The notes beneath the pieces are model-generated. The model was not told where the DNA came from, did no database searches, and worked only from the letters and a program-made list of their open reading frames with translations. A stretch of 64,000 nt of DNA from Halomarina pelagica. Its GTDB lineage: Archaea; Halobacteriota; Halobacteria; Halobacteriales; Haloarculaceae. The position numbers were made by a program, and so were the translations under genes. How positions within the stretch are numbered: position 1 is the stretch's first letter; every line of letters begins with the position of its first letter. The DNA lies in assembly GCF_024228315.1 (NCBI RefSeq), contig NZ_CP100454.1, positions 3,162,001 to 3,226,000 on the forward strand. The letters run 5' to 3'. Positions 53,944-62,477 of this stretch are shown piece by piece.

Positions 53944-56900
53944 TCAAGGCTCGTATGAGTCGTAGTTCCGGCGGATTCGGTCCTTGATCTCCTCCTTCGA
54001 GAGGAGGCCATCGCCCGTGAATTTCGTCTCGAACGAATCGATCACCTCGCGGGTCAGATCCGGGTCGGTATCGCTCGTGTGGTACCGAACGATCACGCCG
54101 CGGACGGTGGCGCGCGTTTCTCTCACCGTCATCGGGTCCTCGTACGCGGGTCTCACCACTCGTTCGTGTCCCTCTCGAACCAGTATCCACGTTCGATCCC
54201 GGACGGTACCGCCGATCCGGAAGTTCTCCTGGTTCTTCACGAGTCGCCACGCCATGCGATCACTCGAGACAGTTCGATACGCCCGCCACTCGTATTTCGC
54301 TCCGTGAACCAGTTCACGCGATACTGCCTTGTATCGCGTATCGGAGACGGTACGCCATCTCGTATACTCGTGTTCGTACTCCGTGACGTATTCGGCAGGT
54401 CGCAGGAGGTGGCGTCGAGTTCGACCCGTGGGGTCGTGCGAGTACGACCGCGGAGCGATCGACCAGTACGTGTGCTGCTCTTCCCACGATACGCGCCTGG
54501 TGGTCGTGACCGTGTAGCAACCGATCCAGGGGAGACACTGCCTGCTGTCGACCTCTCGAACCGCAGTTTCCGTCGTCCAGTACTCATACTGTCGCTCTGT
54601 GATATAGATCGCGGGGGACTCCTGAACGCGTCGAGTGTCCCCCGTGAACGCATCACCGCGAGTGCGTCGCCACTCGATATCGGTGTACGGTTCTCTCCAC
54701 GTCAGCGTCTCCGCTCCGGCTACACTCCATTCCGGATGTTCGTCGACGAACAGCCGACGCTGCCAACGCTGGTCGAACAGTTTCTCCCGCGTCTCGTACT
54801 TCGCGTCCCGTACCTTCACCCGCCGCTCGATCTGATATTCGCTCACGTCCGTCGTAACATCCTCCACGGTAAACCCGTAGGACCGGAGCCGCCGCGCTTC
54901 ATCGCGGCTCTCCGCCAGTATCCGGGCTTCGATGGGCTTTTCGATCACGTAGCTCAGTTTCGAGACCCACAACTCCTCGCGGCGCGTCTCGTTGAGATGC
55001 GTCACCGAAACGGTGGGGAGACGATATCGTTCGCGGACGTACCCCGGCCGCGCCTCGTTGAACAGAACCAGCGTCGGTCGCAGTCCCCGGGCGGCCAGAT
55101 CGCCCGCTTCAATCTCGATCACGCCCTCGTAGTACACGGCGTTCTCACCGCCTGGATCATCGCCAGGGGCACCCCTCATTGCCACGAACGGCACCTCGCG
55201 CCATTCTACGATCTCCCCCGCTGAACCGTCCAGTTTCGCACCGATCGATATGTCCGCCGTCTCCCGACGGAGATGAACGGGTTCCGTTTGTACGCGAACG
55301 CGGAGTTTCGTAAACGGAGCGTATGGTTCGTATCGATCGCGATACGTAGTGCGCCACTGTACGGGAATCGACCGTACACGGGTCTCACTGTCGAGTATTT
55401 CGGGGACAAGTCCGGCGTGTGCGCTCCACGTCTGGATCGCTGTTTGACCTTGGCCGTCCTTTAATACAAGTTGCCCATTATCCCAGAAGCTCAATACCGC
55501 CGTCGTATTGTCAGGGGTTATCGGCTTAGCGCCCAATTTCCATCCGAACCTGAGATCACTCCCATCCGGATCGAACGAACCGCTCGCGTCGATCTTGATC
55601 GGCTCGACGTACCCTCCGCTCGTTCCATCGTTCAACGTCCGGAATCTGATCTCGGGGGGACTCGGTGTCACAGAGAATTCCGACAGATCGTCAGACGAAC
55701 GCACCGTTTCGTCGTAACCGTAGTAATCGAAATTGGAGATGACAGTGTAATCACCCGGTTCGAGCCCTGCCCAATACGAATGAACCTCGAGAATTCCGTC
55801 TTCGACGACCTCCTTCTTTCGGGTGACCGTAAATACCTTAGTCGAAGCTTTAGCTCGTAGGTCCACGTACACCCGATCCGGATCCGCCCCGTTCAACGCG
55901 ATCTTCACGACGTGGTGTGCCGTGTACCGCCCCGGATCGATCCGATCGTGGTACGAATCGACCGGTCCGTTCACGAACTCCGCGGAGACGAGTTCGGGGG
56001 TTCCTACCGGCGAGAGCGTTCGGGTCACCGTCGCCGTCTGCCCGCGGGCGTCGATCGCCGTCGCGGTCAGCGTGTAGTTCCGCTTCGGATCGTACTCGCT
56101 CCAGTCGAACGAGAGCGAGTACGAGTCGCTCTCTCGGGCTCGAACGTCGCTCGGGTTCATCGTCGCCGTCTCCGTCCCGAGGCGAGTCACCGTCACCTGG
56201 ACGCGTTCGAGATTACCGAACCCGTCGCTCGCGTCTGCGGTCCCGGAGATTGCCCCCATACGACGGAGGTTCGGGAGCGAGAGCGTCGGTTTCGGATCGG
56301 CGACGACGTCGGTCGTTCCGTCGGGGAAGCGTGCCGTCGTCGTCGAACCGTCGACGTAGGTGACGACGGCACGGAGTTGGTGGAGCCCCGGTTCCCAGGC
56401 GCGCGTACGCTGGCGTCCCGAACCGACCGTCCGTCCGTCGACGATCCAGCGGACGGCGTCGATCGCACCCCAGCCGCCGTCCACGTCTAACTCGTAGCTC
56501 CCCCGGAGCGGTCGCGCGCCGGTGACGAGCGTCGGGCCATCGATCGTCGGCTCACGACCCGCCGCGATCGGCGGGCTCGTCGGCGGATCGGACGCCGGGG
56601 GAGCGGGCGACGGTGGCGTGGCGGACGGCGGGCCGGACGAGGGAGGCCGAGGCGTCGGTGGCGTGGGCGGAGCGGACGGTGCTTCGCTCACGTAGACGTA
56701 GAGCGTGTCGGAGGCGTCGTTTCCGTCGTCGTCGGTGACGGTCACTGTCACCTCGTACCGACCAGTTTCACTCGCTACGAACGTGGTGCGTGGATCCGTC
56801 GGATCCCTCGGTTCGACGCTCCGGTTCGACGGGGTTCGTATCGCCCACTCGTACCGGTCGATGTGGCCGCCAGGATCGCGCGACCCCGTCGCGTCGAGGA

Positions 56901-57045
56901 TGACGGTCGCTCCCCGTTCGACTCGCTGGTCGAGCCCGGCGTCGGCCAGGGGTCGTTCGTCCGGTGCGAGTCCGACGGCGGGTGTGACAGATAGTGACAG
57001 TACGGAGGCGAGGATCAGGAGACGTCGAGCGGTGAGTCCAACCAT
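53944..57045 (-). CDS. Large secreted PKD-domain protein with aromatic/arginine-rich tail
   Basis: 1033 aa. Signal peptide residues 1-26; PKD domain about 30-120 (ADAGLDQRVERGATVILDAT, then YEVTVTVTDDDGND); Pro/Ser/Thr linker 121-165; several Ig-like units to about 680. The last ~300 residues are unusual: Tyr, Trp, Arg and Glu alternate in hairpin-like units (YVTEYEHEYTRWRTV; YKAVSRELVHGAKYEWRAYR), with a tight C-x5-C pair (QCLPWIGCY). No membrane span or sorting motif ends it. GC is visibly lower than in neighbours. A role as a stalk or binding rod is inferred. Confidence 0.75.
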   Translation of the reverse strand: MVGLTARRLLILASVLSLSVTPAVGLAPDERPLADAGLDQRVERGATVILDATGSRDPGGHIDRYEWAIRTPSNRSVEPRDPTDPRTTFVASETGRYEVTVTVTDDDGNDASDTLYVYVSEAPSAPPTPPTPRPPSSGPPSATPPSPAPPASDPPTSPPIAAGREPTIDGPTLVTGARPLRGSYELDVDGGWGAIDAVRWIVDGRTVGSGRQRTRAWEPGLHQLRAVVTYVDGSTTTARFPDGTTDVVADPKPTLSLPNLRRMGAISGTADASDGFGNLERVQVTVTRLGTETATMNPSDVRARESDSYSLSFDWSEYDPKRNYTLTATAIDARGQTATVTRTLSPVGTPELVSAEFVNGPVDSYHDRIDPGRYTAHHVVKIALNGADPDRVYVDLRAKASTKVFTVTRKKEVVEDGILEVHSYWAGLEPGDYTVISNFDYYGYDETVRSSDDLSEFSVTPSPPEIRFRTLNDGTSGGYVEPIKIDASGSFDPDGSDLRFGWKLGAKPITPDNTTAVLSFWDNGQLVLKDGQGQTAIQTWSAHAGLVPEILDSETRVRSIPVQWRTTYRDRYEPYAPFTKLRVRVQTEPVHLRRETADISIGAKLDGSAGEIVEWREVPFVAMRGAPGDDPGGENAVYYEGVIEIEAGDLAARGLRPTLVLFNEARPGYVRERYRLPTVSVTHLNETRREELWVSKLSYVIEKPIEARILAESRDEARRLRSYGFTVEDVTTDVSEYQIERRVKVRDAKYETREKLFDQRWQRRLFVDEHPEWSVAGAETLTWREPYTDIEWRRTRGDAFTGDTRRVQESPAIYITERQYEYWTTETAVREVDSRQCLPWIGCYTVTTTRRVSWEEQHTYWSIAPRSYSHDPTGRTRRHLLRPAEYVTEYEHEYTRWRTVSDTRYKAVSRELVHGAKYEWRAYRTVSSDRMAWRLVKNQENFRIGGTVRDRTWILVREGHERVVRPAYEDPMTVRETRATVRGVIVRYHTSDTDPDLTREVIDSFETKFTGDGLLSKEEIKDRIRRNYDSYEP

Positions 57046-59968: not shown

Positions 59969-60050
59969 GCGGAAACCCCTCGACGGCGTAGGGGCGCCTC
60001 GAGGATCCGCCGAATTCGACTGCGACAAGCGTTCACACACCAGTTTGCGG

Positions 60051-60084: not shown

Positions 60085-60321
60085 ATGGTGCACACCTGCC
60101 GGAACTGCAAGCGGACCTTCGACACGGAACTCGAACTCGAACTCCACCAGGACACCTGTTCGGACGCGCAACTGTTCTGCCGGAAGTGCGGCACGCGGTT
60201 CGCGGAGCGACGCGCCACCCGCGACGGCTGGCACTACGCCTGCCCGACCGACGACTGCGACGGCGAGGGCATCGGCGAGGACCTCCTCCGGGTACGGGAC
60301 GCCCTCACGGTCGCCCGCTGA
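60085..60321 (+). CDS. C2H2-like/rubredoxin-like zinc protein
   Basis: 78 aa from ATG 60085 (MVHTCRNCKRTFDTELELEL). Residues 5-25 form a C2H2-like finger (CRNCKRTFDTELELELHQDTC), and a CRKCG...CPTDDC four-cysteine site follows. A GTG 9 bp upstream is a weaker start. Such double zinc proteins are frequent in haloarchaea and are probably nucleic acid- or protein-binding; no target is known. Confidence 0.75.
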   Translation: MVHTCRNCKRTFDTELELELHQDTCSDAQLFCRKCGTRFAERRATRDGWHYACPTDDCDGEGIGEDLLRVRDALTVAR

Positions 60322-60376: not shown

Positions 60377-60838
60377 TCACGTCGCCGCTCGCGCCATCTC
60401 CTCTAGCGTCGCGAGCGCACGCCGACAGACGACCGCGTAGCCCGCCGCGAGCGGCGGCACTTCGAAGACGACCCGACAGCCCCCGCCGACGGGTTCGACG
60501 CGGTGTCCCGTCGCCGGCACGGTCGGCGAGAGGTCGAGGACGTTCCGAACGAGGGCGACCGTCGGCGCGCCCACTTCCCACGTCCAGCGGTAGTCGGCGC
60601 AGGAGGTGACCACGAACGGCACCCAGACGCCGCCGGCCGCCTCGGTCACCTGCACGCGTCCGCGCGTCCCCGCCTCGACGTACCGCCGGTCGCACTCGAC
60701 CGCCCGCACGGACGGCCCCCACTCCGGCCAGCGGGTCGTGTCAGTCAGCAGGTCCCAGAGTACGTCCGGCGGCGCGTCCATCCGGCGGCTCACCTCCAGG
60801 CGGTAGCCGTCGGGCGTGTTCCGGAAGGCCAGTCCCAT
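60377..60838 (-). CDS. SRPBCC-family polyketide cyclase/dehydrase-like protein
   Basis: 153 aa. The helix-grip pattern is clear: VSRRMDAPPDVLWDLLTDTTRWPEWGPSVR near the start, then a central beta core and a long C-terminal helix (AVVCRRALATLEEMARAAT). Such proteins bind lipids or hydrophobic small molecules. It diverges from the aldo-keto reductase across a 15-bp perfect palindrome and is probably controlled with it. Confidence 0.83.
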   Translation of the reverse strand: MGLAFRNTPDGYRLEVSRRMDAPPDVLWDLLTDTTRWPEWGPSVRAVECDRRYVEAGTRGRVQVTEAAGGVWVPFVVTSCADYRWTWEVGAPTVALVRNVLDLSPTVPATGHRVEPVGGGCRVVFEVPPLAAGYAVVCRRALATLEEMARAAT

Positions 60839-60861
60839 GTCCGGGGAGAGGAACGCGAACG

Positions 60862-60908
60862 GGATAAAGCGTTCACGGGGATCACCCCGCCCCGTGAACG
60901 CTTTTGCC
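60862..60908. promoter_or_regulatory. Symmetric divergent promoter with 15-bp perfect inverted repeat
   Basis: Perfect arms 60866-60880 and 60890-60904 (aaagcgttcacgggg and its complement) flank a 9-nt spacer. Minus-strand gctttatcc (60862-60870) is 28 nt from the SRPBCC start, and plus-strand gcttttgcc (60900-60908) is about 26 nt from the reductase start. Both TATA boxes therefore overlap the outer ends of the palindrome. Confidence 0.7.
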
Positions 60909-60928
60909 TCCCGACGAGAGGCGGGAGC

Positions 60929-61903
60929 ATGGAGTACACCACGCTGGGCGACACGGGCGTCACCGTCAGCAGGATCTGTCTCGGCTGCATGAGCTTCGGT
61001 AGCTCCGACTGGCGCGACTGGGTGCTCGACGAGGAGGCGGGCGTCGAACTCGTCGAGCGGGCGATCGACCTCGGGATCAACTTCTTCGACACGGCGAACA
61101 TGTACTCGCTGGGCGAGTCAGAGCGCGTCCTCGGGGAGGCGCTCGAGGGGCGGCGCGAGGAGAGCGTCGTCGCGACGAAGGGCTTCTTCCGGATGGACGA
61201 GGACGACCCCAACTCCGGCGGTCTGTCGCGCAAGGCGATCGAGCAGGAACTCGACGCCTCCCTCGACCGGCTCGGGATGGACGCGATCGACCTCTATCAG
61301 ATCCACCGCTGGGACGACGACACGCCGATCGAGACGACCCTCCGGGCGCTCGACGACGCCGTCCGTCGGGGAAAGGTGCGCTACGTCGGAGCCTCCTCGA
61401 TGTGGACCCACCAGTTCGCGGAGGCGTTGCACACCTCCGACCGGCTCGGCCTCGAGCGGTTCGTCACCATGCAGAACCACTACAACCTGCTCTACCGCGA
61501 GGAGGAGCGCGAGATGCTCCCCTACTGTCGCGAGCGGGGGATCGGGGTCATCCCGTGGTCGCCGCTGGCCCGCGGCTACCTGACCCGGCCGCACGAGGAG
61601 TTCGACGCGACCACGCGCGGCAAGACCGACTCCCACGCCCAGCGCCACCCGTACTTCGAGGGGGGCGGGCGGGAGATCAACGAGCGCGTGCGGGAACTGG
61701 CGGACGAGGAGGACGCGACGATGGCACAGATCGCTCTCGCGTGGATGCTCACGAAGGAGTGGGTCGACGCCCCCATCGTCGGGACGACGAGCGTCGAGCA
61801 CCTCGAAGACGCGGTCGCCGCGCTCGACATCTCCCTCGCCGATAGCGACGTCGAGTACCTCGAAGAACCGTACGAACCGGTGCCCATCTCCGGGCACGAG
61901 TGA
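60929..61903 (+). CDS. Aldo/keto reductase
   Basis: 324 aa from ATG 60929 (MEYTTLGDTGVTVSRICLGC). The catalytic tetrad is visible: Asp and Tyr in NFFDTANMYSLGESE, Lys in VVATKGFF and His in DLYQIHRWDDD. NADP is bound through the C-terminal part (IVGTTSVEHLEDAVAAL). Substrate is unknown. It diverges from the SRPBCC gene and shares the palindromic promoter. Confidence 0.9.
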   Translation: MEYTTLGDTGVTVSRICLGCMSFGSSDWRDWVLDEEAGVELVERAIDLGINFFDTANMYSLGESERVLGEALEGRREESVVATKGFFRMDEDDPNSGGLSRKAIEQELDASLDRLGMDAIDLYQIHRWDDDTPIETTLRALDDAVRRGKVRYVGASSMWTHQFAEALHTSDRLGLERFVTMQNHYNLLYREEEREMLPYCRERGIGVIPWSPLARGYLTRPHEEFDATTRGKTDSHAQRHPYFEGGGREINERVRELADEEDATMAQIALAWMLTKEWVDAPIVGTTSVEHLEDAVAALDISLADSDVEYLEEPYEPVPISGHE

Positions 61904-62405: not shown

Positions 62406-62477
62406 AGCGGCGCAAAAGCGTTCCGTCGGTCGCTCTCCCGGACAGTCTCCGGGGGCATCGCTCGCCTGTCGCCGATT

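Follow-up and report, generated by a model that had tools for sequence, protein, structure and literature searches.

A perfect palindrome between divergent SRPBCC and aldo-keto reductase genes of Halomarina pelagica: a probable inverted duplication of a core promoter

Results

Two divergent genes border the site within the window, i.e. the whole stretch of 64,000 nucleotides of Halomarina pelagica (contig NZ_CP100454.1) that was analysed. The left one is an open reading frame on the minus strand (60380-60838, ATG at 60838, stop codon just under 60380) for an SRPBCC protein (polyketide cyclase/dehydrase-like, 153 aa; Pfam Polyketide_cyc2 PF10604, E 2.2e-12), and the right one, on the plus strand (60929-61903, ATG at 60929), encodes an aldo-keto reductase (AKR, 324 aa; Pfam PF00248, E 2.6e-75). 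Orthologues of the SRPBCC gene were found in all seven other Halomarina genomes, while those of the AKR are spread across Halobacteria, with 92% identity to H. halobia; H. halobia and H. oriensis were the named congeners among the matches. The solved structures nearest to the AKR are generic aldo-keto reductases (PDB), its nearest NCBIfam model, methylglyoxal reductase, scored far under the cut-off, and four paralogues are present in the same genome.

At least 12 relatives from five genera retain the divergent pair (60380-61903) despite freely changing sequence and length (71-240 nt) of the DNA between the genes, which suggests a functional link between SRPBCC and AKR. A literature search on this gene pair returned nothing relevant. 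Also nearby, 60086-60319 encodes a small, zinc-finger-like protein of 78 aa that contains several CxxC pairs and has no match in Pfam or NCBIfam. The minus strand further carries two AACGCTT elements in intergenic DNA: TGTGAACGCTTG (60026-60037) has no obvious gene downstream, and GGAACGCTTTTG (62411-62420) is followed by a minus-strand ATG after ca. 70 nt.

The gap of 90 nt between the two ATGs holds a perfect inverted repeat with 15 of 15 positions complementary, consisting of a left arm AAAGCGTTCACGGGG (60866-60880), a spacer of 9 nt ATCACCCCG (60881-60889), and a right arm CCCCGTGAACGCTTT (60890-60904). The repeat search thereby reproduced the arms and spacer described in the first-pass annotation, whose assignment of the flanking genes was likewise confirmed by open reading frames and Pfam. 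The palindrome is present as a single copy in the genome and is not a chance match: 864 kb of the H. pelagica genome, the sample on which all repeat statistics are based, contained eight perfect inverted repeats with arms of 15 nt or more (spacer up to 30 nt), versus ca. 0.2 expected from a first-order Markov model. It is also nothing exceptional for this genome, because these eight equally long repeats amount to a density of ca. 9 per Mb. One perfect hairpin of 16 bp (CTTTTACAGGGCGGGC-GAA-GCCCGCCCTGTAAAAG, C1:2048828-2048940) is part of a dispersed repeat of ca. 110 nt, which has no match in Rfam and recurs as numerous partial copies, in either orientation, in H. pelagica and in other Halomarina genomes. 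For another perfect repeat of H. pelagica, no orthologous region was found in relatives.

A matrix for BRE/TATA elements was trained on 461 upstream regions from H. pelagica, based on crude gene calls and including the window itself as a negligible share. The resulting motif reads (C/G)GGAACG-TTWT, and the upstream regions are enriched in A+T at -30 to -26 with A-rich positions at -35 to -32, as is known for leaderless genes of haloarchaea. The right arm contains the putative BRE/TATA of the AKR, GTGAACGCTTTTGC (score 11.87 at -35; full element GTGAACGCTTTT), and the left arm, read on the minus strand, that of SRPBCC, GTGAACGCTTTATC (score 10.86 at -38). Scores this high are reached in just 0.1-0.2% of random 60-mers, and the match starts ca. 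35-38 nt before the start codon on both sides, as in haloarchaeal leaderless core promoters. Each arm is thus predicted to supply one gene with its BRE/TATA at the position of a leaderless promoter. At the outer edges, the TATA-like TTTATC (60868-60863, minus strand) and TTTT (60902-60905, plus strand) are centred ca. 26-28 nt from the ATGs, in agreement with the earlier claim of a TATA box for one divergent gene at each edge. In 65 of 80 AKR orthologues, -36 or -37 is the position of the best motif site, and the SRPBCC promoters of five congeners scored 4.3, 3.0, 0.25, -0.76, and -2.22 compared to 10.86 in H. pelagica.

The palindrome itself was absent from each of the 12 relatives that retain the pair (six Halomarina, one Halocatena, two Natronorubrum, one Halostagnicola, and two Halococcus), where the longest perfect inverted repeat in the intergenic region was 8 bp (spacer up to 40 nt). 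Likewise, no inverted repeat of 13 bp or longer was detected in the 150 bp upstream of the 80 AKR orthologues. The exact 15-mer half-site has no further copy in H. pelagica and none in 391 other genomes of the order, and it was not seen upstream of the four AKR paralogues. Among the near matches listed for the half-site in the H. pelagica genome (one or two mismatches), most fall inside open frames of coding-like composition. One such match in the window, with a single mismatch (ATGCGTTCACGGGG, 54640-54653, minus strand), falls within a large ORF (53944-57045) and is probably due to chance.

An alignment of this region with those of the two closest relatives (G004 and G005), anchored in coding sequence, separated old from new portions of the palindrome. 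The SRPBCC TATA core GGGATAA (60861-60867; TTATCCC on the minus strand, to which the element belongs) forms invariant columns and, since it is common to both relatives, predates the palindrome. The AKR BRE/TATA core GAACGCTTTT is invariant in all three genomes as well. By contrast, the stretch AGCGTTCACGGGGATCA (60868-60884, approximate borders) is absent from the relatives, creates the palindrome, and places the left arm mostly inside a lineage-specific insertion. What these alignments show as conserved is the core promoter only, not the palindrome. A deletion in G004 is a less likely source of the difference, conceivable because congeners differ widely in the length of this intergenic region (71-159 nt), although G005 also has GGGATAA followed by CCCC.

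Discussion

This site is best read as two divergent core promoters of the ordinary kind whose symmetry stems from a recent inverted duplication. We consider it probable (roughly 0.75) that the palindrome arose as a recent local inverted copy of the core promoter, providing SRPBCC with a promoter nearly identical to that of the AKR. The symmetry would be explained by a right arm that is a core promoter and a left arm that is a lineage-specific inverted copy thereof. In this scenario, the right arm corresponds to a haloarchaeal BRE/TATA of the ordinary type that belongs to the AKR gene, and a strand was probably copied back on itself during replication or repair in an event of the template-switch type, which would have set an inverted copy of ca. 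22 nt beside the pre-existing SRPBCC TATA core GGGATAA. The outcome would be near-identical elements for TBP/TFB binding (GTGAACGCTTTT and GTGAACGCTTTA), each ca. 36 nt before a start codon, with two initiation complexes facing outwards and no dedicated dimeric regulator required.

When a 22-nt ancestral piece is inserted as its reverse complement, the promoter core of 49 nt is reproduced with two differences, both of which are transitions located in the spacer. The ancestor used in this model (CGGGATAATCCCCGTGAACGCTTTTGCC) is partly inferred, and the closest relative, which comes near to it, has GGGGGATAATCCCCCACGAACGCTTTTGC at this place. The spacer matches the reverse complement of the SRPBCC TATA region (CGGGATAAT) at 7 of 9 positions (P ca. 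0.001-0.002 in shuffles), a match that was noticed post hoc and in G+C-rich sequence. The insertion is derived relative to the outgroups and corresponds to the reverse complement of adjacent DNA, as expected for a template-switch inverted duplication, as far as the partly reconstructed ancestor allows; the mechanism and the exact ancestor are what we infer from this comparison. A stronger, AKR-like SRPBCC promoter is the likely consequence, and transcription of SRPBCC might have been raised or matched to that of AKR.

The main rival is a neutral scar, i.e. an inverted duplication that is a mutational by-product without effect next to a SRPBCC TATA box that was already working. The older age of GGGATAA fits such a scenario, and so does the density of perfect repeats in the genome sample, where repeats of this length are not rare. 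On the other hand, the copy lies exactly in register to serve as the SRPBCC BRE and coincides with a rise in score from at most 4.3 in relatives to 10.9, so that we regard an origin without any effect as unlikely.

The first-pass annotation had combined the divergent promoters with a possible operator, at which a dimeric regulator bound to the palindrome would control both genes jointly. The promoter part of this interpretation stands with one BRE/TATA per arm, while the operator part falls with the absence of the palindrome from 12 of 12 relatives, the very observation, lack of the palindrome where the pair is kept, that had been named beforehand as speaking against it. A perfect 15-bp dyad does span both promoters, and a divergent pair kept in 12 relatives makes co-regulation conceivable. 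However, an operator should be conserved as a dyad in orthologous intergenic regions and recur at further sites of a regulon, and neither was found: the dyad is also missing from the 80 AKR upstream regions, the portion of the half-site that is conserved corresponds to the BRE/TATA core only, and the paralogues lack the half-site. The search for the half-site in haloarchaeal genomes, which the same annotation had proposed, gave no exact match in the 391 others. An operator with a regulon was rejected, given that no exact half-site exists elsewhere in 392 genomes and that the near matches listed for the H. pelagica genome lie mostly in likely coding sequence. A species-specific, selected operator finds no support in these comparisons either, and joint control by a dedicated dimeric factor seems very improbable to us.

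Even less credible is a function as RNA, be it a terminator, an attenuator, or a structured leader. The strand does fold into a stable hairpin of 15 bp (z -4.2), but both genes are directed away from it so that no transcript ends there, the promoter positions imply leaderless transcripts with starts outside the palindrome, and Rfam gave no match. The folded hairpin is probably not transcribed, as both starts are expected outside of it, and if the genes are leaderless, the palindrome would lie upstream of both start sites, so that any effect it has would be exerted as DNA rather than as an RNA hairpin. A terminator was rejected, as it is excluded by gene orientation. Perfect inverted repeats are typical of mobile or REP-like elements, yet a dispersed element of this kind is already refuted by the single genomic copy and a half-site unique among 392 genomes, and its probability is negligible.

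Returning to the inverted duplication of a core promoter, a further-reaching version can be proposed, namely that one such event put a strong archaeal promoter on a divergent neighbour and instantly created a matched bidirectional pair in a single species, so that the birth of an archaeal promoter through template switching would have been caught in the act. We put this forward tentatively, as a possibility that falls well short of an even chance. If the change in expression is real, the site would offer a compact natural example of a divergent promoter pair matched in one mutational step. More generally, palindromes at divergent promoters should not be taken as operators before relatives have been checked.

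Comparable elements are known from several systems. In Haloferax volcanii, promoters consist of a BRE (CGAAA) and a TATA element (TTWT), and 72% of transcripts are leaderless (PMC4983044). The putative elements GTGAACGCTTTT and GTGAACGCTTTATC at -35 and -38 correspond to this core promoter and fit the motif learned from the H. pelagica genome. Unlike in Haloferax volcanii, two near-identical copies face away from each other and form a perfect inverted repeat, and this exclusively in the present species. Bidirectional promoters from symmetric TATA/BRE elements have been described in Pyrococcus furiosus, where one TATA element served both directions (PMC6640164). The site in H. pelagica similarly has symmetric promoter elements pointing in opposite directions, but differs by two separate TATA boxes ca. 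39 bp apart, one per gene. Finally, quasi-palindrome or template-switch mutations in yeast render the arms of inverted repeats identical (PMC8604942, PMC3820800), in one of these studies within coding DNA (PMC8604942). Short inverted copies are a hallmark of template-switch mutations known from other organisms, and by analogy, the short, perfect, lineage-specific inverted copy near its source in H. pelagica, with outgroups lacking it, would belong to the same class. In contrast to the yeast cases, the affected sequence here is an archaeal promoter, and the mechanism is deduced from one comparison.
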